DNA from: Methylocystis sp.
GTDB lineage: Bacteria; Pseudomonadota; Alphaproteobacteria; Rhizobiales; Beijerinckiaceae
NCBI GenBank assembly: GCA_016178015.1
Contig: JACOUB010000047.1
Span: forward strand, 62,001 to 126,000
DNA: 64,000 nucleotides
Direction of reading: 5' to 3'
In this document: one piece after another, positions 2,508 through 55,212 of the stretch
Numbering within the stretch: position 1 is the stretch's first letter
Layout of the letters: every line of letters starts with the position of its first letter
The notes under the pieces: model-generated
The model's input: the letters and a program-made list of their open reading frames with translations, nothing else
Databases searched by the model: none
What the model was told of the DNA's origin: nothing
Translations under genes and position numbers: made by a program

Positions 2508-2636
2508 CCTTCTCCCGCTTGCGGGAGAAGGTGGCGAACGAAGTGAGCCGGATGAGGGCGCCGCCGCGCAAACCCATCCGCCCTCACCCGACCCGGCTTC
2601 GCCGGGCCACCCTCTCCCACTTCGCAGGAGAGGGGC
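2508..2636. repeat. Palindromic repeat pair (family A, CTCTCCCGC type)
   Basis: Two hairpins face each other: one with arms TTCTCCCGC/GCGGGAGAA near 2510-2530 and one near 2610-2635, with the conserved tails (cggatgaggg / ccctcacccgaccc) between. This is the commonest dispersed element of the window. It fills the folE-hisI gap and could act as an RNA hairpin or attenuator between the two genes. Confidence 0.85.
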
Positions 2637-9360: not shown

Positions 9361-11907
9361 TCACTTACTCTTGCCCTTAAACGCCCGCGTGCCAGGCCGG
9401 CCGGCCGTCGAGCGTGGGCCGGGGCGAAAGGGCCGCGCCAAGGGGCGCGCTTCGCCGCCGCCGAAATTGTGCGGACCCATGTCGGCGTCGCTCGGCTTGT
9501 GCGCCCTGGTGGCGAAATCCCCCTCCCGGCGCTTCGCGCCACCCTCCCCCGCTTCGCGGGAGAGGGAACGCCGCGCCAGCGGATGCACGCCCGCCGCCAG
9601 CTCCGCCCGCTGCAGGCGCTGGATTTCATCGCGCAAGCGCGCCGCCTCCTCGAAGGCGAGATCGGCCGCCGCAGCGCGCATGCGCTTGTCGAGATCGGCG
9701 AGCGCGGCCTTAAGATTGTGCCCCGGCGCCATCTCTAGTCCCGTGTCGATCGTCACGTGATCGTGCTCGGCGACGGAGCCCAGAATATCGGCGATGCCGC
9801 GCTTGATGCTCGCCGGGGTGATCCCATGCTCGATGTTATAGGCCTGCTGCTTGGCGCGCCGCCGATCGGTTTCGCCGATGGCGCGCTGCATCGAATTTGT
9901 CACCTTATCGGCATAGAGGATGACGCGCCCGTCGATGTTGCGGGCGGCGCGGCCGATCGTCTGCACCAGCGACGTTTCCGAGCGCAAGAATCCCTCCTTG
10001 TCGGCGTCGAGGATGGCGACCAGGCCGCATTCGGGAATATCCAGCCCCTCGCGCAACAGATTGATGCCGACCAGCACGTCGAAGGCCCCGAGCCGCAGAT
10101 CGCGGATGATTTCGATGCGCTCGATGGTGTCGATGTCGGAGTGCATGTAGCGCACGCGCACGCCGTTCTCATGCAGATATTCGGTGAGGTCTTCAGCCAT
10201 GCGTTTGGTCAGCACGGTCACCAGCGCGCGATAACCGAGCTGCGCCGTGGCGCGCGCCTCGCCCAGCAGGTCATCCACCTGCGCGCGCGCCGGGCGCACT
10301 TCGACCGGCGGATCGATGAGGCCGGTGGGGCGGATCACCTGTTCGACGAAGACGCCGCCGGCGCGCTGCATCTCCCAATTGCCGGGCGTCGCCGAGACGC
10401 AGATGGTCTGCGGCCGCATGGCGTCCCATTCCTCGAAGCGCAACGGCCGGTTGTCGAGGCAGGACGGCAGGCGGAAGCCGTATTCGGCCAGCGTCGCCTT
10501 GCGGCGGAAGTCGCCCCGGTACATGCCGCCGATCTGCGGGATGCTGACATGGCTCTCGTCGGCGAAGACGATGGCGTTGTCCGGCAGATATTCGAACAAG
10601 GTCGGCGGCGGCTCGCCGGGTTTGCGTCCGGTGAGATAGCGTGAATAATTTTCAACGCCCGCGCACGAGCCGGTCGCCTCCAGCATTTCCAAGTCGAAGC
10701 GCGCGCGTTGCTCCAATCGCTGCGCCTCGACGAGACGTCCGGCGCGGTGCAGTTCGTCGAGCCGCGTGCGCAATTCCTCCTTGATGCCCTTGATCGACTG
10801 CAACAGGGTGGGGCGCGGCGTGACATAGTGGGAGTTGGCGTAGACCTTCACGAATTCGAGGTCCTGCGTCTTCTTGCCGGTCAGCGGATCGAACTCGCAG
10901 ATCGTCTCGACCTCGTCGCCGAAGAAGCCGATGCGCCAGGCGCGGTCCTCGTAATGCGCCGGGAAAATGTCGATCGTATCTCCGCGCACCCGAAACGTTC
11001 CGCGCATGAAATCGGCGCTGACCCGGCGGTACTGCAAGGCGACGAGATCGGCGACCAGCTGGCGCTGCTTGAGCCTCTCGCCGGCCGTCACGCTGAAGGT
11101 CATGGCCGTGTAGGTCTCGACCGAGCCGATGCCGTAGATGCAGGAGACGGACGCCACGATGATCACGTCGTCGCGCTCGAGCAGGGCGCGCGTCGCAGCG
11201 TGACGCATGCGGTCGATCTGCTCGTTGATCGAGGATTCCTTTTCGATGTAGGTGTCGGTGCGCGGGACGTAAGCTTCCGGCTGATAGTAATCGTAGTAGG
11301 AGACGAAGTATTCGACTGCGTTGTTGGGAAAAAAGCTCTTGAACTCGCCATAGAGCTGCGCGGCCAGCGTCTTGTTGGGCGCGAGCACCAGCGCGGGACG
11401 CTGGGTGCGCGCGATCACCTGCGCCATGGTGAAGGTCTTGCCGGAGCCGGTGACGCCGAGCAGCACCTGATCGCGCTCGTTGGCGTTGACGCCCTTCAGG
11501 AGCTCCTCGATCGCCTGCGGCTGGTCGCCCTGCGGCGCGTAATCGCAGACGAGCTCGAACCTGACGCCGCCTTCGCTCTTTGGCGGGCGCTCGGGGCGAT
11601 GCGGCGTCCATGGCGCGCCCTGGCGCATATTGGGGTCGCCGAGCCGCAACAGCTCGTCGAGCGAGTCGATCGTCGCCTGCCCGCCGGCGAAGCCGCGCGG
11701 CGCCTCCAACTTTTCGGCCAACGCCGCGTCGAGTTCGGTGAATTCTCCGGGCGCGTAAGGCGATTGCGGCGCCTCCTCGAAACCGTTTGGCGGCTCGATC
11801 AGCGCCGGATTGAGCAAAGCCGCGAGATGCGGCGCCAAAGGCGCGACCTCGGGCTTCGACGCCTTGGCGCGGGTGGGACGTGCGGGCTTTTTGGGGGGCG
11901 TGGCCAT
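9361..11907 (-). CDS. uvrB: Excinuclease ABC subunit B
   Basis: UvrB verifies DNA lesions with UvrA and loads UvrC in nucleotide excision repair. The 848-residue protein has a family-atypical N-terminal extension of about 135 residues before [17 protein letters not shown], Walker [10 protein letters not shown] near residue 152, the damage-probing hairpin [18 protein letters not shown], the DESHVS motif and a C-terminal UVR helix pair ([20 protein letters not shown]). Beyond the UVR motif, residues of about 780-796 are translated palindromic repeat. I chose the ATG at 11907; further upstream the frame is repeat-derived. It appears monocistronic. Confidence 0.96.
9519..9568. repeat. Family-A palindrome inside the uvrB 3' end
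   Basis: Arms CCCTCCC and CTCCCCCGC...GCGGGAGAGGG lie within the uvrB frame and are translated as [13 protein letters not shown]-type residues beyond the UVR domain. The frame is kept, so the repeat lengthened the C-terminal tail instead of breaking the gene. Confidence 0.8.
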
Positions 11908-14626: not shown

Positions 14627-17269
14627 ATGAGAATGTGCTCCGCTGGTCCATCTGGCGCGAATACTCGCGCCACGCCATTGACGCAGGCGTTCGCCGAGCC
14701 GCTGCCCATCGACGGCGTGTTGTCGCTGATCGGAGAGGCGCTGTCTTCCCATCCCAATCTCGTCGTCGTCGCGCCGCCCGGCGCCGGCAAGACGACGCGC
14801 ATTCCGCTCGCCCTTTTGGATGCGGCCTGGTTGGAAGGGCAAAAGATCGTGCTGCTGGAGCCGCGCCGATTGGCGGCGCGCGCGGCGGCGGCGCGCATGG
14901 CGGCGACGCTCGGCGAGAGCGTCGGCGACACGGTGGGCTTGCGGATGCGCCTCGAATCCAAGGTTTCGGCGCGCACCCGCATCGAAGTCGTGACCGAAGG
15001 CGTTTTCGCGCGCATGATTTTGGACGATCCCCTCTTGGAGGGAATCGGGGCCGTGCTGTTCGACGAGTTTCACGAGCGCTCGCTTGACGCCGACGTCGGC
15101 TTGGCGCTGGCGCTCGACGCGCAAGGCGGTCTGCGCGAGCATTTGCGGCTCATTGCGATGTCAGCGACGCTCGATGGCGCGCGCGTCGCCAGCCTCATGC
15201 GCGATGCGCCGCTTGTCGAGAGCTCGGGGCGGGCTTTCCCGGTCGAGACGCGTTATCTCGGCCGCGACGCGGGCGAGCGCGTGGAGGACGCCGCAGCGCG
15301 CGCCATTCGGCGGGCGCTCGGCGAGGAGGAAGGTTCGATCCTGGCCTTTCTTCCCGGCCAGGCGGAGATCGGGCGCGTCGCTAGCAGACTGGCGGAATGC
15401 GGCCTCGGCGCCAACGTGGATGTCGCGCCGCTGCATGGCGGTTTGGAGCGCGGCGAGCAGGATCGCGCCATCGCGCCCGCCGCGCCTGGCCGCCGCAAGA
15501 TCGTGCTGGCCACCTCGATCGCCGAAACCTCGTTGACCATCGAGGGCATGCGGCTGGTGATCGACAGCGGCTTGGCGCGCGTTCCGAGATTCGAGCCCGA
15601 TCTCGGCCTCACGCGATTGGAGACCGTGCGCGCCTCGCGGGCCAGCGTCGATCAGCGGCGGGGCAGGGCGGGGCGCGTCGAGCCGGGCGTCTGCTATCGC
15701 TTGTGGGAGGCGGCCGCGACAATGTCGTTGCCGGCGTTCACCGCGCCGGAAATCCTCGCCGCCGATTTGGCGGGCGTCGCCCTCGATCTGGCTTACTGGG
15801 GCGTCGTCGATCCTTACCAACTGGCGTGGCTCGATCCGCCGCCGGCGCCGGCGTGGATGGAGGGCGCAGCGCTGCTGCGCGAACTCGGCGCGCTGGACGG
15901 CGACGGCAAATTGACGCCGGCCGGGCGCGCCATGCGCGCGCTGCCGTTGCCGCCGCGCCTGGCCCACATGGTCCTGGAGGCGGCGCGCCAGGGGCGAGCC
16001 GAGCGGGCCGCCGATCTCGCCGTTGTGCTTTCGGAGCGCGGACTCGGGGGACAAAGCGTCGATCTTTCGGCGCGATGCGAGCAGTTTCATGCGGATCGTT
16101 CGCGGCGGGCCCACGACGCCCGCCGCCTCGCCGCCCTTTGGGCCAAGCAGGCGCGCGCCGCTGTCGAGCCCCCTCCCTCACCCTCCCCCGCTGCGCGGGA
16201 GAGGGGTCGGCCGGCGTTTCGCGTAACGTCCATGAAGCGCGCAACCTGCCCCCTCTCCCGCGAGCGAAGCGAAGCGGGGGAGGGTTGGGGAGGGGGCCTA
16301 TCGGACGGCGCCTTGATCACCCTGGCTTTCCCCGATCGCATCGCCAAGGCGCGCGCGACGCGCGGCGAATTCTTGATGGCCAACGGGCGGGCGGCGATCG
16401 TTGCGCCGCACGATCATCTGGCCGGCGAGCCGTTTCTCGCCATCGCCGAGATTGGCGGGCGCGCCGCGCAGGCGCGCATTGTCGCGGCGTGCGCGCTCGC
16501 GGGGGAAGAAATCGACGCTCTGGCGAGCGCGCGCATAAAAACGCGCGAGGAGACGTTGTTCGACGCAGCCAGCGCCAGTCTGCGCCGGCGTCGCTCGCGC
16601 CGGCTCGGCGCCATCATGCTCGCCGAGCAGAACCTCGCCGTCGAGCCGGGGCCATCGAACGCGGCAATTTTGGCGCGCGGCGTTGCGGCCATTGGCGTGG
16701 GCCGTCTGCCGTGGACCAAGGCGCAGATGCAAAAGCGCGACCGCATCGCCTTCTTGCGCCGCAACGCAGGCGAGGATGGCTGGCCAGACGTAAGCGACGC
16801 GGCGCTGGCCGCAACGGCCGCGGATTGGCTGGCGCCGTTCATCGAAGGCCGCGCGAGTCTTGCAGCGATCGGCGGCGCCGATCTCGACGCGGCCTTGGCG
16901 AGCCTGCTGCCGCACCAACTCGCCCGCCGTCTCGACGCCGAGGCCCCAGCCTTCTTCGAGACGCCGGCGGGTTCGCGCGTCGCGCTCGATTACGCCGCGG
17001 CGAACGGGCCGCTTCTCTCGGTGCGCGTGCAGGAGCTTTACGGGCTCTCCGTCCATCCCACCTTGGCGAAAGGCCGCGCGCCGATAACGCTCGAACTGTT
17101 GTCGCCGGCGCATCGTCCGATCCAGACGACCCGCGATCTTCCCGGCTTCTGGGGCGGCTCCTGGGGCGAGGTGAAGAAGGAGATGAAGGGCCGCTACCCG
17201 CGCCATGTCTGGCCGGACGATCCAGCCAACGCCACGCCCACGACGCGGGCCAAGGCGAGAGGGCGATGA
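14627..17269 (+). CDS. hrpB: ATP-dependent RNA helicase HrpB
   Basis: An 880-residue DEAH-type helicase of the HrpB branch. Walker A APPGAGKTTR spans residues 49-58, the DEFH box is at 146-149, and the SAT motif (MSATLDG) and the C-terminal HrpB domain (WGGSWGEVKKEMKGRYPRH) are present. Its bacterial role is poorly known; RNA processing is the usual suggestion. Residues about 514-558 are translated palindromic repeat inserted between the helicase-associated region and GALITLAFPDR, leaving the frame open. The start may instead be the TTG at 14677, since residues 1-16 look unrelated to the family. Confidence 0.93.
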   Translation: MRMCSAGPSGANTRATPLTQAFAEPLPIDGVLSLIGEALSSHPNLVVVAPPGAGKTTRIPLALLDAAWLEGQKIVLLEPRRLAARAAAARMAATLGESVGDTVGLRMRLESKVSARTRIEVVTEGVFARMILDDPLLEGIGAVLFDEFHERSLDADVGLALALDAQGGLREHLRLIAMSATLDGARVASLMRDAPLVESSGRAFPVETRYLGRDAGERVEDAAARAIRRALGEEEGSILAFLPGQAEIGRVASRLAECGLGANVDVAPLHGGLERGEQDRAIAPAAPGRRKIVLATSIAETSLTIEGMRLVIDSGLARVPRFEPDLGLTRLETVRASRASVDQRRGRAGRVEPGVCYRLWEAAATMSLPAFTAPEILAADLAGVALDLAYWGVVDPYQLAWLDPPPAPAWMEGAALLRELGALDGDGKLTPAGRAMRALPLPPRLAHMVLEAARQGRAERAADLAVVLSERGLGGQSVDLSARCEQFHADRSRRAHDARRLAALWAKQARAAVEPPPSPSPAARERGRPAFRVTSMKRATCPLSRERSEAGEGWGGGLSDGALITLAFPDRIAKARATRGEFLMANGRAAIVAPHDHLAGEPFLAIAEIGGRAAQARIVAACALAGEEIDALASARIKTREETLFDAASASLRRRRSRRLGAIMLAEQNLAVEPGPSNAAILARGVAAIGVGRLPWTKAQMQKRDRIAFLRRNAGEDGWPDVSDAALAATAADWLAPFIEGRASLAAIGGADLDAALASLLPHQLARRLDAEAPAFFETPAGSRVALDYAAANGPLLSVRVQELYGLSVHPTLAKGRAPITLELLSPAHRPIQTTRDLPGFWGGSWGEVKKEMKGRYPRHVWPDDPANATPTTRAKARGR
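16169..16297. repeat. Composite family-A element inside hrpB
   Basis: Two palindromes (CCTCCCCCGCTGCGCGGGAG and the CCCTCTCCCGCG...GCGGGGGAGGG pair) flank a unique middle. Read on the minus strand the middle matches that of 50102-50226 (GCTTCATGGACGTTACGCG against GCTTCATCGACGTTGCGCG). The element is therefore a unit of about 125-130 bp, inserted in frame in a conserved gene. Confidence 0.85.
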
Positions 17270-24128: not shown

Positions 24129-24321
24129 CCTTCTCCCGCGTCGCGGGAGAAGGTGGCCCGGCGAAGCCGGGTCGGATGAGGGCCGGCGCCACCCTCCGAA
24201 ACTGACGCAGAACAACCGGCCCGAACCCCACGCAAGGCCCGTCGGCGAGGCAGTTCGCAAGCGCCCTCATCCGACCCTCGCTAACGCGAGGGCCACCTTC
24301 TCCCGTTTCACGGGAGAAGGG
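24129..24321. repeat. Two family-A palindromes in inverted orientation
   Basis: Copies at 24129-24182 and 24263-24321 face each other in the 377-bp gap between cpaA and cpaB. To their right, GTTAACCTTAAT at 24352-24363 may be part of the cpaB promoter. Confidence 0.85.
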
Positions 24322-42546: not shown

Positions 42547-43374
42547 ATGACCGCCGTCGATTTCGAGAGCTTCGTCGACCATCTCGCCGATGTCTCGGGG
42601 GAGGCGATCCTACCCTTCTTTCGCACCGCGCTGACGGCGGAGGACAAGGCGCATGGCGGCCCCTTCGATCCGGTGACGGAGGCCGACCGCGCCGCCGAGA
42701 CCGCCATGCGGCGGCTCATCGAATCGACCTTTCCCGACCATGGGATCGTCGGCGAGGAGTTCGGCGCCCATCGCGAGAACGCCGAATACGTGTGGGCGCT
42801 CGATCCGATCGACGGCACCAAGAGCTTTATCTGCGGTCTGCCGCTGTGGGGCACGCTGATCGGCCTCACGCATCGCGGCGTCCCTTGCTATGGGCTGATG
42901 CACCAGCCTTTTACCCGCGAGCGCTTTTCCGGCGACTGTGAGGCGGCGTTCTGGCGCGGGCCGGCGCGCCACAACGTGCATGCCCCGGCGCGTGGAGCTT
43001 CGCCGTCGTGCGACAAACGCCGCTTGAAGGTGCGCGAGTGCGCCTCGCTTGCTGACGCGACCGTGATGACGACCTCGCCGCTGCTCATCGCCGATGATTT
43101 GCGCGACGCCTTCCATCGCGTCGAGCGGCAGGCGCGGCTGTCGCGCTATGGCGGCGATTGCTATGCTTATTGCGCGCTGGCCGCCGGCCATGTCGATCTC
43201 GTCATCGAGACCGGCCTCAACCCTTACGACATCGTGGCGCTCATCCCGATCATCGAGGGGGCGGGCGGCATCGTCACCTCCTGGAGCGGCGCCGCGGCGG
43301 CCCAAGGCGGGGCGATCGTCGCGGCCGGCGACCGGCGCGCCCACGCAGCGGCGGTGAAGTTGCTCGGAGGGTGA
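42547..43374 (+). CDS. hisN: Histidinol-phosphatase, inositol-monophosphatase type
   Basis: A 275-residue phosphatase with ALDPIDGTKSFICGLPLWGTLIGL, GGDCYAYCALAAGHVDLVIE and YDIVALIPIIEGAGG, the pattern of HisN as opposed to SuhB. It removes phosphate from histidinol phosphate, the step before HisD. GGGAGA precedes the ATG. Residues about 140-160 (NVHAPARGASPSCDKRR) look like a short family-specific insert. Confidence 0.9.
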   Translation: MTAVDFESFVDHLADVSGEAILPFFRTALTAEDKAHGGPFDPVTEADRAAETAMRRLIESTFPDHGIVGEEFGAHRENAEYVWALDPIDGTKSFICGLPLWGTLIGLTHRGVPCYGLMHQPFTRERFSGDCEAAFWRGPARHNVHAPARGASPSCDKRRLKVRECASLADATVMTTSPLLIADDLRDAFHRVERQARLSRYGGDCYAYCALAAGHVDLVIETGLNPYDIVALIPIIEGAGGIVTSWSGAAAAQGGAIVAAGDRRAHAAAVKLLGG

Positions 43375-43478
43375 TTTTTCAGTTGCGAAATTGTGCGTTC
43401 AAGACTGGAGTCAGCGCGCCATTTTGGAGGTTGAGCAGCCGTTGCGCCGTCAACAGATGCGGAGCGGGCGTTCCCCGC

Positions 43479-44411
43479 CTAAAGGACATCGGCGAGCGTA
43501 TCGTAAACGTAAACGTCCGCGATATCGATCATGTCGCTGACCTTCGGAGCATTGGAAAACACCGAGAACAAGACGTCGTTGAGGCGATGGAATTTGAGCG
43601 AAGCCGGCGCGTTGGCGCCGGGCAGATAGCGGGCGTTCGGATATTTCCGGCGCCAGGCCGCCCATAGCCGATCGACATTGCAGTGATTGAGGAAGAAGAC
43701 CGGATCGTTGGGCGACGACGCCGGCGCCATGTCGCCGCCGATCCAGACGTGCACCCGGTTGTGCATGCCGGGCGGGTCGGGCTGCCACCCCTCGACCACG
43801 TTGCGCAGCGTGGTGGAGGAGTCGACGCCCCAATGTGGCTCGTCATAGGCATCGAGGTTGACTGCGGCGCGCGCCTGCGCCGTCGTCGGCAAGGTCGAGA
43901 TATCGCCAGCGATGTTGCGCGCCAGACCCCTGCTGGCGGCGACGAGCTGGCCCATGCTGTTGGTCTCGACGCGAACGATGAATTTGTCGGGATTGGCGTT
44001 GGGATTGGCGAACGGGCCGGTCGTCACCGGATCGCCCGAGCCGCCCATGCAATCTGCGCTCCAGACCGGCGCTCGAGTCTGCTGATCCGGCGGAAGGTCG
44101 CCGTCGCGATTCCAGGCCCAATAGGGAAGACCGAACGAGTCGTCTTGCAAGACGCGTTGGAGCTGCTGCTCGTACACCATAAGCAAGTAGCGATGCCACG
44201 GCAGGAACACCGGCCCGCGATGCGCGGCGTTGCGCGAGCCTTGGGTCGGCGGAGTCATCTTCATCATCGCCCGCACATGCCACACGACCAGCGCGTCATA
44301 CGTGCTCAGGCCGCTTTGCGGGTTGATCTCCCGCTTTAATCGCAGCACGCCGTCGACATACTTGGCGCGGACGGCGGCGTCAGTGGCGATGTCCTTGCGA
44401 GTGACCGCCAT
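43479..44411 (-). CDS. Tyrosinase-family type 3 copper protein
   Basis: A 310-residue copper oxidase. Copper A is bound by His45 (VWHVRAMMK), His64 and His73 (AHRGPVFLPWHRYLL); copper B by His217, His221 (MHNRVHVWIGG) and His243 (NDPVFFLNHCNVDRLW). It should oxidise phenols to quinones. No signal peptide or Tat motif is visible at the N-terminus, so export would need a partner. It overlaps the preceding small gene by 32 bp, and the two form an operon. Confidence 0.92.
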   Translation of the reverse strand: MAVTRKDIATDAAVRAKYVDGVLRLKREINPQSGLSTYDALVVWHVRAMMKMTPPTQGSRNAAHRGPVFLPWHRYLLMVYEQQLQRVLQDDSFGLPYWAWNRDGDLPPDQQTRAPVWSADCMGGSGDPVTTGPFANPNANPDKFIVRVETNSMGQLVAASRGLARNIAGDISTLPTTAQARAAVNLDAYDEPHWGVDSSTTLRNVVEGWQPDPPGMHNRVHVWIGGDMAPASSPNDPVFFLNHCNVDRLWAAWRRKYPNARYLPGANAPASLKFHRLNDVLFSVFSNAPKVSDMIDIADVYVYDTLADVL

Positions 44412-44751
44412 GTTGCCCTCCCGTTCGTCGGCCGCGCGGCTTCTTCTTCTCGAAATCCTCGGGGAAATTGTCGACGATCGTCTTCACAATATCGACCGCG
44501 GAGGACAAGGAATAGTTCGGAATTGCATGGCTCTGCACGTGTCCGTCCTCACTCACCGTGAGAGGGAAATGAACGACGCGTCCGTCGATCTTGACCTCAT
44601 ACGTGGTGGCGATTGAGATTTCGTGACCCTTGTGGCTGAAGGTGCGCACCGACTTGTTGTGCATCGCGCCGTGCTTGATCTGGGGCAGGCGGGCGACGGA
44701 CTTCAGCAACGGCGCACTTGGCGCGTAGCTGGCGACCTCTTTGCGTTTCAT
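44380..44751 (-). CDS. His-rich small protein coupled to the tyrosinase gene
   Basis: A 123-residue protein with no family I can name. It has a compact central part (YEVKIDGRVVHFPLTVSEDGHVQSHAIPNYSLSS) and a basic tail ending GGQHGGHSQGHRH, rich in possible copper ligands. It begins the operon and overlaps the tyrosinase start by 32 bp. By analogy to Streptomyces MelC1, which loads copper into tyrosinase, a copper-delivery role is plausible; there is no sequence similarity to MelC1 that I can see. Confidence 0.75.
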   Translation of the reverse strand: MKRKEVASYAPSAPLLKSVARLPQIKHGAMHNKSVRTFSHKGHEISIATTYEVKIDGRVVHFPLTVSEDGHVQSHAIPNYSLSSAVDIVKTIVDNFPEDFEKKKPRGRRTGGQHGGHSQGHRH

Positions 44752-44841
44752 GACCCCCCCCGATGCGAGAGCGCTACCGGCATACTATCACGAATTGCAC
44801 GCCTAGTGGCCTACGTCAGCCAAATTGATGGGTTTATTTGT

Positions 44842-44899
44842 GCGAGCCTGAAGGCTCGCGGTCCAAGAGCGGCCCTGGACCGCGAGCCTTCAGGCTCGC
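44842..44899. repeat. Palindrome doublet (family B)
   Basis: Fifth copy of the GCGAGCCTGAAGGCTCGC doublet, GGTCC flanks inward. It lies in the 530-bp gap before the Gly-Tyr protein, which also contains GTTAACCAT at 45072-45080 and no recognised gene. Confidence 0.9.
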
Positions 44900-45282
44900 A
44901 AATCGAACCCACCCTCCAGCGCACCCTTCATTTACGTGACGCGGGCCACTAGGAAGCATCGCGGTCCATGCGCCTGTTTGACCAATGGAACGCGAGGAAG
45001 CCCTTTGCATCCAATCTAGCGGATTACGGAATTGCGCCTTTGGCGACGCCTATGCTGAGATTGGGGCGCCCGTTAACCATCAATTTTTGCAAGAAACGTG
45101 GAACCATTATCCATCGACGATGTTTCCTTAAAGGCAAGCCTCCGCTTGTAGCCATCCGAGCGTTGGGGGGGCGGGTGACGAGCTTGCGAGGGGTCTCCGC
45201 GCCGCCGCGCATCGATGGCGGGAGGAAAGGGAGTTCGTTCGCGAAGTTTGAAAGAACGACTGGTAAGTGAGGAGTGCGCAAG

Positions 45283-45708
45283 ATGAACACGATGTCGAAA
45301 TTTGCAGTCGCCGGACTATTCGGAACCGTCGTTTCCTTGACGCTCGCCGGCGGGGCTCTTGCAGGGCCGGTCGGAGTGGCGGCGCCCAGCGTCGCCCCAA
45401 TCCGGGCGCCGATCGAAACCGTCCAATACTGGCGCGACGGGGGTTACCGTCATCATCATTACCATTACTCCTGCGGGGGCGGCTGCAATCCGTATTACTC
45501 CGCCCTTTCTGCCGCCGGAGTCGTCAGTTATCCGGTGTATGAAATTCACAACTACAGGATCGATTACGCTTCGCCGTCCTACAACCACGGTTATGGCTAC
45601 AACAGAGGCTATGGCTACAACAGCGGCTATGGCTACAACAACGGCTATGGCTACAACAACGGTTACGGCTACAACAACGGTTACGGCTACGGCGGGTTCT
45701 TTCGGTAG
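45283..45708 (+). CDS. Secreted glycine/tyrosine/asparagine-repeat protein
   Basis: A 141-residue exported protein: signal peptide (MNTMSKFAVAGLFGTVVSLTLAGGALAG), a His/Tyr patch (YRHHHYHYSCGGGC), a short ordered part (VVSYPVYEIHNYRIDYASP) and a tail of six-residue GYGYNN-type repeats ending GYGGFFR. It resembles low-complexity envelope or matrix proteins; the tyrosines next to a tyrosinase operon raise the idea of oxidative cross-linking, which is inference only. GAGGAG lies 8 bases upstream of the ATG. Confidence 0.75.
   Translation: MNTMSKFAVAGLFGTVVSLTLAGGALAGPVGVAAPSVAPIRAPIETVQYWRDGGYRHHHYHYSCGGGCNPYYSALSAAGVVSYPVYEIHNYRIDYASPSYNHGYGYNRGYGYNSGYGYNNGYGYNNGYGYNNGYGYGGFFR
45589..45693. 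repeat. 18-bp tandem repeat in the Gly-Tyr gene
   Basis: Five full units and a partial of GGCTATGGCTACAACAAC with minor changes at third bases. Each unit encodes GYGYNN, so slippage changes length in frame. Confidence 0.9.
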
Positions 45709-45860
45709 GTCGCTTGGCGCAGCAGCAAGGGCGTTCGCGAGGCGGAGCGGCGCCGTCTCGCCGTCGTGAAAACGCTCTCCGCGCGAGGCGTCCCAGCGGG
45801 CTCGTCGAGAGCTTTTCGCGTCGCGCCGAACGCGCTCTTTTTTCGAGGGTCGTCTTGCGG

Positions 45861-46832
45861 TCAGCCCGCGCCCCCGCGCTCTGGCTCTCTGGCCACGGCG
45901 CCGGGCACGAAGGCGTCGAAGGCCGCCCAGAATTGCGCGCGCGCCGCATCCTGCTCCATGAGGATTTCATGACGCGCGGCGGGAATAGTGATGAGATTGG
46001 CGACCTCTAAGCGGGCGGCGAAACGTTCGATGGCGCGCAGCGACACGATTTCGTCCTGCCCGCAGGCGACGAGCAAGGCCGGGGCGCGCGCGCCGCGCGG
46101 ATATTCGGGCGCCGCGAATTGTTTCATCTGACGAAAGGCCGCGTTGAGCCAACCGATGGTCGGATCGCCGATGGCGAGTTGCGGCGCCTTGCTCAATATC
46201 GCCGCGTTGCGGGCGAAGCGCGCTGCGTCGGAGGTGAGTTTGTTGCCCGCAAAGCCCTCCTCGGCCAACGAGGTCTCTTTGCCGCCTGGGATGAACATCG
46301 CGCCGAGTCCGACCATGTCCAGCGCATCGGCTAGCGCGCGCGCGATTCTCGGAAAGCGCAGTCGGGCGAGGTCGATCATCGGCGCGGTCAAGACGAGACG
46401 CTGGAACGGCGAGCGTCCGCGGTGCGCTTGCTCGAGCAAGATGGCCGCGCCCATCGAATGGGCCAAGGCGAACCATGGCTGCGGGCATAGGAATTCGACG
46501 ACCTGCTCCGTAAAGGCGTCGAGATCGCGCTGATAGAGCGAGAAATCGTCGACATGGCCTTTGCGCGGATTGGCGAGTTCGCGCTCGGATCCACCCTGGC
46601 CGCGCCAATCCATGGTCGCGACCTGAAAGCCGCGAGCGAGCAGCTCGGCGATGGTCTCGAAATACTTCTCGATGAATTCGGCGCGGCCTTGAAATATTGC
46701 GACTGTGCCGCGGGTGCGATGGCCGGGCGCCCAACTGGCCACGCGCAAGGTTTTCCCGTCGCTGGTCCGCACCGCAGACACCACCGCCCCTGGCGGCGCG
46801 AGATTTGCTGAGGTTTCGATCAGCTCCAGCAC
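45861..46832 (-). CDS. Alpha/beta hydrolase, lysophospholipase/monoacylglycerol lipase-like
   Basis: A 323-residue serine hydrolase with the nucleophile elbow AHSMGA and the fold pattern QGRAEFIEKY, DWRGQGGS, the acid near ACGQDEIVS and His in ARHEIL. Members cleave monoglycerides or lysophospholipids. The start is GTG 46832 with AAGGAG upstream; the longer frame upstream is translated repeat. The last 15 residues are a charged tail. Monocistronic. Confidence 0.87.
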   Translation of the reverse strand: MLELIETSANLAPPGAVVSAVRTSDGKTLRVASWAPGHRTRGTVAIFQGRAEFIEKYFETIAELLARGFQVATMDWRGQGGSERELANPRKGHVDDFSLYQRDLDAFTEQVVEFLCPQPWFALAHSMGAAILLEQAHRGRSPFQRLVLTAPMIDLARLRFPRIARALADALDMVGLGAMFIPGGKETSLAEEGFAGNKLTSDAARFARNAAILSKAPQLAIGDPTIGWLNAAFRQMKQFAAPEYPRGARAPALLVACGQDEIVSLRAIERFAARLEVANLITIPAARHEILMEQDAARAQFWAAFDAFVPGAVAREPERGGAG

Positions 46833-49903: not shown

Positions 49904-50101
49904 ATAATTTTATCGTATGCGTACGTTTTCGGTAACATGACGCCAGTTCCCATTGCCGCGAGGCGGAGGCGGAACGCGCGCTCCGGGCGCCCATTCCGAC
50001 GCCGCCAAGCGCTCGAGCGGTTTGCTTGTGCGGCAAAGGCAAATCTGGCAAGACTATTTTTTCGCCGATATGTCAGCCCTGCTGACGCTAGACGCCTGTC
50101 G

Positions 50102-50226
50102 CCCCCACCCCAACCCTCCCCCGCTGCGCGGGAGAGGGAGTAGATTTGGGGCTTCATCGACGTTGCGCGAAACGCCGATCGTTAGCGTCCCCTCTCCCGC
50201 TTGCGGGGGAGGGACAGGGAGGGGGC
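50102..50226. repeat. Composite family-A element upstream of gltB
   Basis: Palindromes near 50112-50138 and 50180-50215 flank the middle GCTTCATCGACGTTGCGCG. The same element, inverted, is inside hrpB. The gap 49904-50339 otherwise has no recognised gene. Confidence 0.85.
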
Positions 50227-53300: not shown

Positions 53301-55001
53301 GTCGATGCGGTGATCGCCAAGGTGCGGCATTCGACGCCCGGCGTCGGCCTCATCTCGCCGCCGCCGCATCACGACATCTATTCGATCGAGGACCTCGCGC
53401 AGCTGATCTTCGACTTGAAGAACGTCAACCCGCGCGCCGGCGTGTCGGTGAAGCTCGTCTCGGAAGTCGGCGTCGGCACGGTCGCGGCGGGCGTCTCCAA
53501 GGGCCGCGCCGATCATGTGACGATCTCGGGCTTCGAAGGCGGCACCGGCGCTTCGCCCTTGACCTCCATCAAGCACGCCGGCAGCCCATGGGAAATCGGC
53601 CTCGCCGAGACGCATCAAACCTTGGTGCTGAACGGCCTCCGGTCGCGCATCGCCGTGCAGATCGACGGCGGCTTGCGCACCGGGCGCGACGTCGTGGTCG
53701 GCGCTCTTCTGGGCGCCGACGAGTTCGGCTTTTCCACCGCGCCGCTCATCTCCGCCGGCTGCGTGATGATGCGCAAGTGCCATCTCAACACCTGCCCGGT
53801 CGGCGTCGCCACGCAGGACCCGGTGCTGCGCAAGCGCTTCGTCGGCCAGCCGGAGCACGTCATCAACTTCTTCTTCTTCGTCGCCGAGGAGGCGCGCGAG
53901 CTCATGGCGTCGATGGGCTACCGGCGTTTCGACGAGATGATCGGGCAGCGGCAGATGCTCGACAAGGAGCGTGCGCTCTCGCACTGGAAGGCCAAGGGGC
54001 TGGACTTCTCGCGCCTGTTCCACAAGCCGGCGGGCGAGGGCGCGAGCATCCGCCATAGCACGTCGCAGGATCATGGTCTCGACAAGGTTCTCGACCACAC
54101 GCTCATCGCGAAGGCGCGCGCGGCGATCGACCGCGGCGCCAAGGTCTCGATCGAGACGAAGATTCGCAACGTCGATCGCGCCACGGGCGCGATGCTGTCG
54201 GGCGAGGTGGCGCGCGTCTACGGCCATGCCGGACTGCCCGACGACACCATCGACATCCGCTGCGCCGGCACGGCGGGCCAGAGCTTCGGCGCATTTTTGG
54301 CGCGCGGGATTACCTTGCGGCTCGAAGGCGAGGCCAACGATTACGTCGGCAAGGGCCTGTCGGGCGGGCGCCTTATCGTGTATCCGCCGCGCGCGGCGAC
54401 GAAGATCGCGCCCGAGACGTCGATCCTTATCGGCAACACCGTGCTTTACGGGGCGATCGCCGGCGAGTGCTACTTCCGGGGCGTCGCCGGCGAGCGCTTC
54501 GCCGTGCGCAATTCCGGCGCCATCGCCGTGGTCGAGGGGGTGGGCGATCACGGTTGCGAATACATGACTGGCGGCGTGGTGGTGGTGCTCGGCGCAACCG
54601 GCCGCAATTTCGCCGCCGGCATGTCGGGCGGCATCGCCTATGTGCTCGACGAGGACGATTCCTTCGCCAGCCGCTGCAATCTCGCCATGGTCGATCTCGA
54701 GCCGGTGCGCGAAGAGGAGAGCCTGATGTGCGAGAGCTACCACCAGTGCGGCGATCTCGAGCAGCACGGCCGCGTTGACGTGATGGACGACATGACGCGC
54801 TTCGACGCCGAGCGCCTGCGCCAGCTCATCGCCAACCACCTGCGCTACACCGGCTCGACTCGCGCCCGTAAAATTCTGGACGATTGGGAGAGTTTTAAGC
54901 CGAAGTTCCGCAAGGTGATGCCGGTCGAATACCGCCGCGCCCTGAACGAGCTGCTCGCCAAGAAGAAAGAAGAGCTGCCGCTCGCCGCGGCGGGGGAGTG
55001 A
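50340..55001 (+). CDS. gltB: Glutamate synthase, large (alpha) subunit
   Basis: A 1553-residue enzyme that, with GltD, makes two glutamates from glutamine and 2-oxoglutarate. The N-terminal amidotransferase domain is exposed by removal of residues before Cys27 (EHDSCGVGF); [17 protein letters not shown] and HNGEINT follow. The central FMN domain and the 3Fe-4S cysteines ([15 protein letters not shown]) are intact, as is the C-terminal beta-helix. I use ATG 50340; the frame opens at 50259. Its partner gltD lies 3.9 kb downstream instead of next to it. Confidence 0.97.
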
Positions 55002-55010
55002 GCGGCGCTT

Positions 55011-55128
55011 TCCCTCTCCCGCTTGCGGGAGAGGGTGGCCCCGCGAAGCGGGGTCGGGTGAGGGCAGACGCCGCACCCTCATCCGTCGCGCGTTCCGCGC
55101 GCCACCTTCTCCCGCAAGCGGGAGAAGG
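55011..55128. repeat. Two family-A palindromes after gltB
   Basis: Hairpins near 55013-55036 and 55103-55128 in inverted orientation with the usual tails. They would form strong RNA hairpins directly after gltB, which bears on whether gltD can still be cotranscribed. Confidence 0.85.
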
Positions 55129-55212
55129 GCGCTCGCCCAATCGAATTGATCAACCGAAGTGGACGTTGGATTACGGTGCGAGATTACGGCGGCATGATTA
55201 CGGATTTTGGCG

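Follow-up and report, generated by a model that had tools for sequence, protein, structure and literature searches.

A palindromic repeat element in frame within the helicase gene hrpB and its family in the Methylosinus group

The helicase gene hrpB, in a stretch of 64,000 nucleotides (G000:C38:62001-126000, hereafter the window) of a 2.81 Mb draft genome in 63 contigs (G000), contains a palindromic repeat of 129 nt that begins at a codon boundary and leaves the reading frame open. In brief, the repeat has two pairs of complementary arms around a middle segment (Table 1), belongs to a family of dispersed copies and is absent from hrpB of the relatives compared. We consider it very likely that hrpB received a non-autonomous, mobile composite palindrome in the lineage of this species, where it is tolerated as a translated linker loop. 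In-frame palindromes are thereby extended to the Methylosinus group: within a single genus they lie in genes for a helicase, an enzyme that modifies tRNA, a DNA polymerase and polyketide synthases.

The insert in HrpB

The open reading frame (ORF) 14627-17269 matches the HrpB profile TIGR01970 with 981.5 bits across its whole length (positions 1-825 of 825). It encodes the Pfam domains DEAD, Helicase_C, HA2_N and HrpB_C, and its closest solved structures, 6eud and 6heg, are both HrpB. The outer arms of the element are 29 nt long and 90% complementary, and the inner arms, of 13 nt, are 100% complementary. As RNA, positions 16163-16303 fold with -100.5 kcal/mol (z = -7.37), a stability equalled by 0 of 200 dinucleotide shuffles; Rfam gave no match at gathering score in the window. 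The arms, the open ORF and the full profile match bear out the original prediction of a composite palindrome in frame in a conserved helicase. The insert of about 43-45 residues, which it had placed at residues 514-558, is real and comprises 43 codons, the exact residues being 515-557.

A search of 60 genomes gave HrpB matches in 47, the source genome included, a few weak ones being other helicases by score. Proteins from 29 of the 46 other matching genomes were aligned; one (L055) stops short of the site, which leaves 28 informative homologues. The segment is missing from all 28, among them those of all nine congeners (G001-G009, the genus of the methane-oxidising laboratory strain Methylosinus trichosporium OB3b), and the alignment that had been proposed as a check thus identifies it as an insertion. 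In two homologues, L032 and L033, the linker is slightly longer, with a sequence unrelated to the element. At the codon level the congeners have seven codons between a Val and a Leu; in the source gene a single codon and the 43 of the element take their place. This comparison covered the congeners other than L034, which aligns alike in the protein alignment. Thus, 18 nt of the linker are also gone from the source gene. The site is not a clean insertion, and the 18 nt may have disappeared either with the insertion or before it.

The insert falls between the parts that align to the solved HrpB chain 6eud (query residues 25-477 and 561-876), and its site is the linker joining the helicase core and the C-terminal module. 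In an AlphaFold model built from a 26-sequence alignment (mean predicted local distance difference test score, pLDDT, 80.1; predicted template modelling score, pTM, 0.63), residues 526-555 have pLDDT below 50. Helices 493-513 and 560-567 flank the insert, with ten-residue blocks at pLDDT 89-94 (491-510) and 94 (561-570). The 43 residues, rich in Pro, Arg and Gly, probably form a disordered loop.

Compared with ten relatives, the ratio of nonsynonymous to synonymous substitution rates (dN/dS) is 0.21-0.30 before the insert and 0.16-0.23 after it, so the part after the insert is no less constrained. From about residue 557 on, the protein agrees to 74-79% with those of the congeners, and the ORF contains neither stop nor frameshift. 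These tests thus gave no sign of the pseudogene that the original prediction had named as a refutation.

Table 1. Positions of the features described; coordinates are those of the window unless a replicon is named
Feature	Position	Strand	Remarks
hrpB, ATP-dependent (DEAH-box) helicase HrpB, 880 aa, open	14627..17269	+	TIGR01970, Pfam, solved relatives
Palindromic element copy, 5' subtype B (CCCCCTCCCTCACCC)	16169..16297	+	43 codons, residues 515-557
Outer left arm of inverted repeat	16168..16196		pairs with 16269-16297
Inner left arm	16194..16206		pairs with 16250-16262
Middle segment, 43 nt	16207..16249		recognisable in other family copies at lower identity
Inner right arm	16250..16262		pairs with 16194-16206
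Outer right arm of inverted repeat	16269..16297		pairs with 16168-16196
Second window copy, 5' subtype A (CCCCCTCCCTGTCCC)	50101..50225	-	G000:C38:112101-112225
OB3b polyketide synthase gene L123	pOB3b1 82167-93074		two copies in linkers
OB3b polyketide synthase gene L082	pOB3b1 42981-46056		one partial copy in a linker

The element family and its copies inside genes

In the source genome, a DNA search yielded 85 matches at E <= 0.01, many representing both strands of a single palindrome. From 133 first-look candidates, 40 places were scored (38 near full length, two partial), which excludes chance resemblance; the best match besides the hrpB copy itself has E 6.8e-29. The copies are about 110-137 bp long, with the common ends CCCCCTCCC...GGGAGGGGG and a recognisable middle. 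The original prediction held that the same element lies inverted at 50102-50226. We found a member of the same family there, on the minus strand and with its middle included, but shifted by one position (Table 1), 76% identical to the hrpB copy over 1-129 and of subtype A, with an exact A-type end at C38:112203-112225 (TGT, where the hrpB copy has TCA). The gene downstream of it is presumably gltB, a label carried over from that prediction. At window positions 9542-9566 there is also a solo palindromic unit (CCCTCCCCCGC / GCGGGAGAGGG) with no second unit close by.

Across 60 genomes, with up to 14 candidates scored per genome, matches at E <= 1e-8 occur in the source genome, all nine congeners and 3 of 26 others of the same family, and in 0 of 24 genomes of other families. 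A class-wide search, with up to two candidates scored per genome, was positive in at least 3 of 385 genomes, the source genome included. Of 35 matching plasmid records, 33 are from Azospirillum and the other two from OB3b, whose plasmid pOB3b1 (NZ_CP023738.1) has a copy at 85599-85719; ten Azospirillum records match over the full length at 69-76% identity. A B-type query matched 31 Azospirillum and two OB3b plasmid records, and phage records gave no match to the element. The spread is patchy: full-length relatives are found on replicons of Azospirillum, which belongs to another order, and 23 of the 26 same-family genomes have no match at E <= 1e-8.

Flanks fetched in ten genomes yielded 192 unique copies. 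After removal of 14 with low scores and four at contig ends, 174 copies were analysable, 45 from the source genome and 129 from congeners. The congener copies were fetched by resemblance to the hrpB copy or to a B-type end, which biases the survey towards subtype B. The subtype table and the tree comprise 166 copies, 26 of the 192 being left out; four source-genome and 23 congener copies are unclassified in the table, the second window copy (L012) among them.

Long ORFs across other copies were poor guides to genes. Of 20 scanned, 19 had no Pfam match, and in the remaining one (L103) the element lies before the matched domains; ORF length was therefore replaced as a criterion by a codon-usage model of the flanks, trained on the window only and with thresholds of our choosing. 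It should be noted that a stricter first version missed hrpB and that the thresholds were then loosened with hrpB in view. By this model, 5 of the 174 copies are flanked on either side by one and the same coding frame, with no stop where it crosses the element, a count that is thus approximate and in which hrpB is not an independent case. Two of the five lie in a single OB3b polyketide synthase gene; the others are in hrpB, in gluQ of G009 and in dnaE2 of G001. Four further copies share a frame across the element but meet a stop, at or next to the element edge in L007, L199 and L204, and both at the edge and inside in L015. In five (L006, L028, L087, L167, L248) the flanks are coding on one strand in different frames; these may be neighbouring genes or broken ones. 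The other 160 copies have no common coding frame and are read as probably intergenic. L007 (G000:C26, element 1501-1634) abuts a gene end and provides part of its stop codon; by eye, this gene looks like rplY and the next one like pth.

In G009, gluQ matches the GluQRS profile NF004315 over its whole length; the insert is present in one of the ten genomes and, as in hrpB, codons are replaced at the site. The first polyketide synthase insert has a PP-binding domain before it and a ketoacyl synthase after it, and the second is directly followed by a PP-binding domain. Another OB3b polyketide synthase contains a shorter, partial copy, below the cut, with a PP-binding and a ketoacyl synthase domain around it. 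The peptide PPPSPS opens the inserts in hrpB, gluQ, the first polyketide synthase place and the partial copy; the element in dnaE2 has the opposite orientation to these.

The dnaE2 product of G001 matches the error-prone polymerase PRK05672 across the insert, with the OB domain after it. We found the element in the linker before the OB domain in G001, G002, G005 and G008 (L279, L280, L282 and L281, respectively); its length varies among the four species and the frame is kept. G006 retains a short remnant, and G009, G004 and G007 have none; no stop is recorded in these reading frames. In the source genome, dnaE2 (G000:C24:5299-7236; L283:1501-4878, minus strand; a 1126-aa frame, PRK05672 1362 bits) carries a different in-frame palindrome at the same place, and two palindromic families have thus entered one linker. 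This palindrome aligns with window positions 54985-55140 at a mean column identity of 82%. The core of the second family was seen in ten distinct versions in the sequences examined; the window contains three, near 55076, near 24264 and at about 2508-2558 (minus strand), and the core in L213 of G002 is identical to that in dnaE2 of the source genome. Searched against plasmids, 123 nt of this insert gave no match, and 58 nt gave two weak ones.

Origin and persistence of the insert

Two variants of the 5' end, TGTCCC (A) and TCACCC (B), divide the family. Allowing up to one mismatch, the source genome has 44 A-type and two B-type ends and the nine congeners have 0-2 A-type and 0-33 B-type ends each; these are counts of ends, not of copies, a solo palindrome having two ends. 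The mirror-image control gave 0 matches for B; for A it gave 23 in the source genome and one each in G002 and G007, because the A pattern is almost identical to its mirror image. Of the B-type ends of the source genome, one is that of the hrpB copy, and the other has a different middle and right half. The tree of 166 copies groups the hrpB copy with 104 others, all from congeners, in a clade of 105 (support 0.94); the other 42 source-genome copies all fall outside it. The hrpB copy is therefore not a recent product of the present copies in its own genome. It would be either a relic of an older subtype or an arrival from outside.

The original prediction called the element mobile. Movement was not observed; the species-specific presence of the insert and one pair of filled and empty sites (G008 and G006, with a 3-nt overlap only) suggest it. 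At one orthologous place, G002 has a full copy (L112) and G003 a 49-nt solo palindrome (L236), so copies lose or gain the middle; other orthologous pairs have gaps of 39-57 nt. Between L075 (G008) and L207 (G002), homology starts near the element and extends in a single direction, which would fit recombination between copies; these two species are 94-98% identical over the loci they share. Seven copies of the source genome (L003, L004, L008, L010, L016, L019 and L024) partly share their outer flanks (gtcattgaattt... and/or ...acaatcctttca), and the element there seems to be nested within a larger repeat. The G005 copies L151, L159 and L230 have an analogous outer repeat with different flanks.

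As a mobiliser we considered a REP-associated tyrosine transposase (RAYT; REP, repetitive extragenic palindrome), which is not supported. The exact 11-nt unit, CCCTC(C/T)CCCGC or GCGGG(A/G)GAGGG, occurs at none of the nine Y1_Tnp loci of the genus (two of the source genome and seven others), though the stretches are short, at about 1.5 kb on each side and less at contig ends. Five of the ten genomes have no Y1_Tnp match at E <= 0.001, yet B-type ends are present in every one of them (3 to 27 per genome). We also reject the idea that the element is designed to keep the frame: among 101 subtype B copies, lengths modulo 3 of 0, 1 and 2 occur in 31, 26 and 44, and any one of the six frames is open in 40-71 of them.

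Based on these observations, we suggest the following course. The element, a middle flanked by two inverted palindromic units, may work like a REP doublet forming a hairpin (REPIN), a bacterial interspersed mosaic element (BIME) or a small miniature inverted-repeat transposable element (MITE). It would move or be copied between places and, in genes, be tolerated only where length, frame and position in the protein allow. On the line leading to this species a copy would have inserted into hrpB, and its length and frame would have chanced to leave the gene open at a linker site. Since the frame was left open and the site is a linker, the hrpB mRNA is most likely translated straight through. The insert would then persist through doing little harm and not through the element being built to suit proteins. 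The anatomy of the insert, its family of copies, its absence from relatives, the open frame and the match to the full HrpB profile are observed; translation, disorder, tolerance and transposition of the insert are what we infer in this account.

Several observations weigh against it. There is no convincing target-site duplication, with replaced codons at the hrpB and gluQ sites and no more than that 3-nt overlap in the filled and empty pair, and the very stable hairpin in the mRNA could slow or stop ribosomes. The dN/dS values sum both branches, so that a very recent loss of function would stay hidden. Residues 315-376, in the conserved helicase core, also have pLDDT below 50 in the AlphaFold model, and low pLDDT by itself is therefore no proof that the insert is disordered. 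The B subtype was otherwise not seen among the source-genome copies examined, and thus no donor of the hrpB copy was identified. Finally, the chromosomal dnaE2 of G003 is internally deleted to a 196-aa frame (L309:3866-4453, G003:C5) that joins the first 60 or so and the last 117 residues of DnaE2, so members of this gene family can be lost; no unit of the element was found in it.

The insert might instead have been kept for use, for example as a basic disordered loop that binds RNA or protein, the recurrence in hrpB, gluQ and dnaE2 then reflecting selection. The three targets outside the OB3b plasmid are indeed all nucleic-acid enzymes, the dnaE2 linker has received two palindromic families in different species, and four species retain the insert there. 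Against this, the length of the dnaE2 insert varies widely from species to species, down to the remnant in G006, a pattern that unconstrained sequence would be expected to show; other in-gene copies lie in polyketide synthase linkers; and the hrpB and gluQ inserts are each found in one species. We regard selection for use as improbable. A chance frame across an hrpB that is a pseudogene or was split by the element is less probable again: GC-rich sequence does yield long chance frames, as the scanned ORFs without Pfam match illustrate, but the full-length TIGR01970 match and the close, constrained and uninterrupted part after the insert oppose it. That the insert is an artefact of assembly or contamination is hardly credible. 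The draft has many contigs, the element is repeated and subtype B otherwise occurs in other species, but a single contig (C38) spans hrpB, both halves of the gene are similarly diverged from the congeners, none of nine congener hrpB genes has an insert that could have been the contaminant, and an in-gene copy of the family is also in the pOB3b1 record of OB3b, titled complete sequence.

The insertion of a mobile palindrome tolerated in a linker remains our preferred explanation. Two points deserve attention: the hrpB copy is of a foreign subtype, and the dnaE2 linker has been entered twice. We speculate, with considerable doubt, that linkers are refuges as well as landing pads for repeats. The hrpB copy would then be a fossil of subtype B, elsewhere replaced by A and preserved because it is coding, the two families would have entered the dnaE2 linker independently, and some linkers of nucleic-acid enzymes would be preferred through targeting or selection instead of being random survivors.

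Comparison with known systems

A limited literature search found no report of this element family. No title or abstract found in this search of open-access literature reports in-frame palindromes in Hyphomicrobiales, which agrees with the claim of the original prediction that they are little described there but is weak evidence of absence. Among papers that contain both 'Methylosinus' and 'palindromic', the passages of two that were checked concern CRISPR and an origin, other REPs are described in Bradyrhizobium (PMC5082802), and the string 'methylo' is absent from PMC3733652.

MITEs, as characterised in a passage of PMC10969869, are shorter than 500 bp, have terminal inverted repeats, form a stable hairpin, occur in many copies and are typically AT-rich. 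The element shares the size, the terminal inverted repeats, the stable hairpin and the many dispersed copies, but it is GC-rich, target-site duplication is not established, and a parent insertion sequence was looked for among Y1_Tnp only. With REPINs (PMC3116915, PMC2817692) it has in common two inverted palindromic units around a spacer and many copies; in contrast to the REPIN/RAYT system it has no conserved GTAG tag, and the nine Y1_Tnp loci of the genus contain no exact unit of the family. These likenesses do not show it to be either a REPIN or a MITE.

The original prediction compared the insert with the Rickettsia palindromic elements (RPEs). According to parts of PMC2229807 and PMC10969869, RPEs are palindromes of 105-146 bp with terminal inverted repeats, intergenic or in frame in conserved genes, and a guanylate kinase (Gmk) carrying one is translated and active. 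The present family resembles them, as described, in its length, its terminal inverted repeats and its copies both outside genes and in frame. It differs in its host organisms and in that 5 of 174 analysable copies keep the frame of a gene, whereas nearly half of the first-reported RPEs lie in ORFs according to a review.

In-frame palindromes are known from Rickettsia, as had been stated, but are not special to it. Passages of PMC3733652 describe GTAG/CGTC REPs that are mostly intergenic and in some cases lie within genes, including those of DnaE2, RNA helicases and tRNA synthetases as well as uvrA and recB, and REP clusters that encode 43-82 aa in Thauera and R. conorii. Our family is likewise palindromic, mostly intergenic and in some cases in genes, with overlapping targets. 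It differs from GTAG REPs in being a composite of about 120 bp without a conserved GTAG tag: of 166 copies, 16 contain GTAG and 26 contain CTAC at any place in the element. For the CGTC tag of the other REP type, the counts are 79 copies with GACG and 45 with CGTC, again at any place in the element. The dnaE2 linker with its two families parallels another case in the same passages, in which two Xanthomonas species have different REPs at about the same recB site. As an interspersed palindromic repeat that is in frame in a conserved gene and absent from the homologues, the element is a further repeat family, in a further host group, for a known phenomenon. Whether such inserts are neutral survivors or certain protein linkers are favoured thereby becomes a testable question outside Rickettsia.

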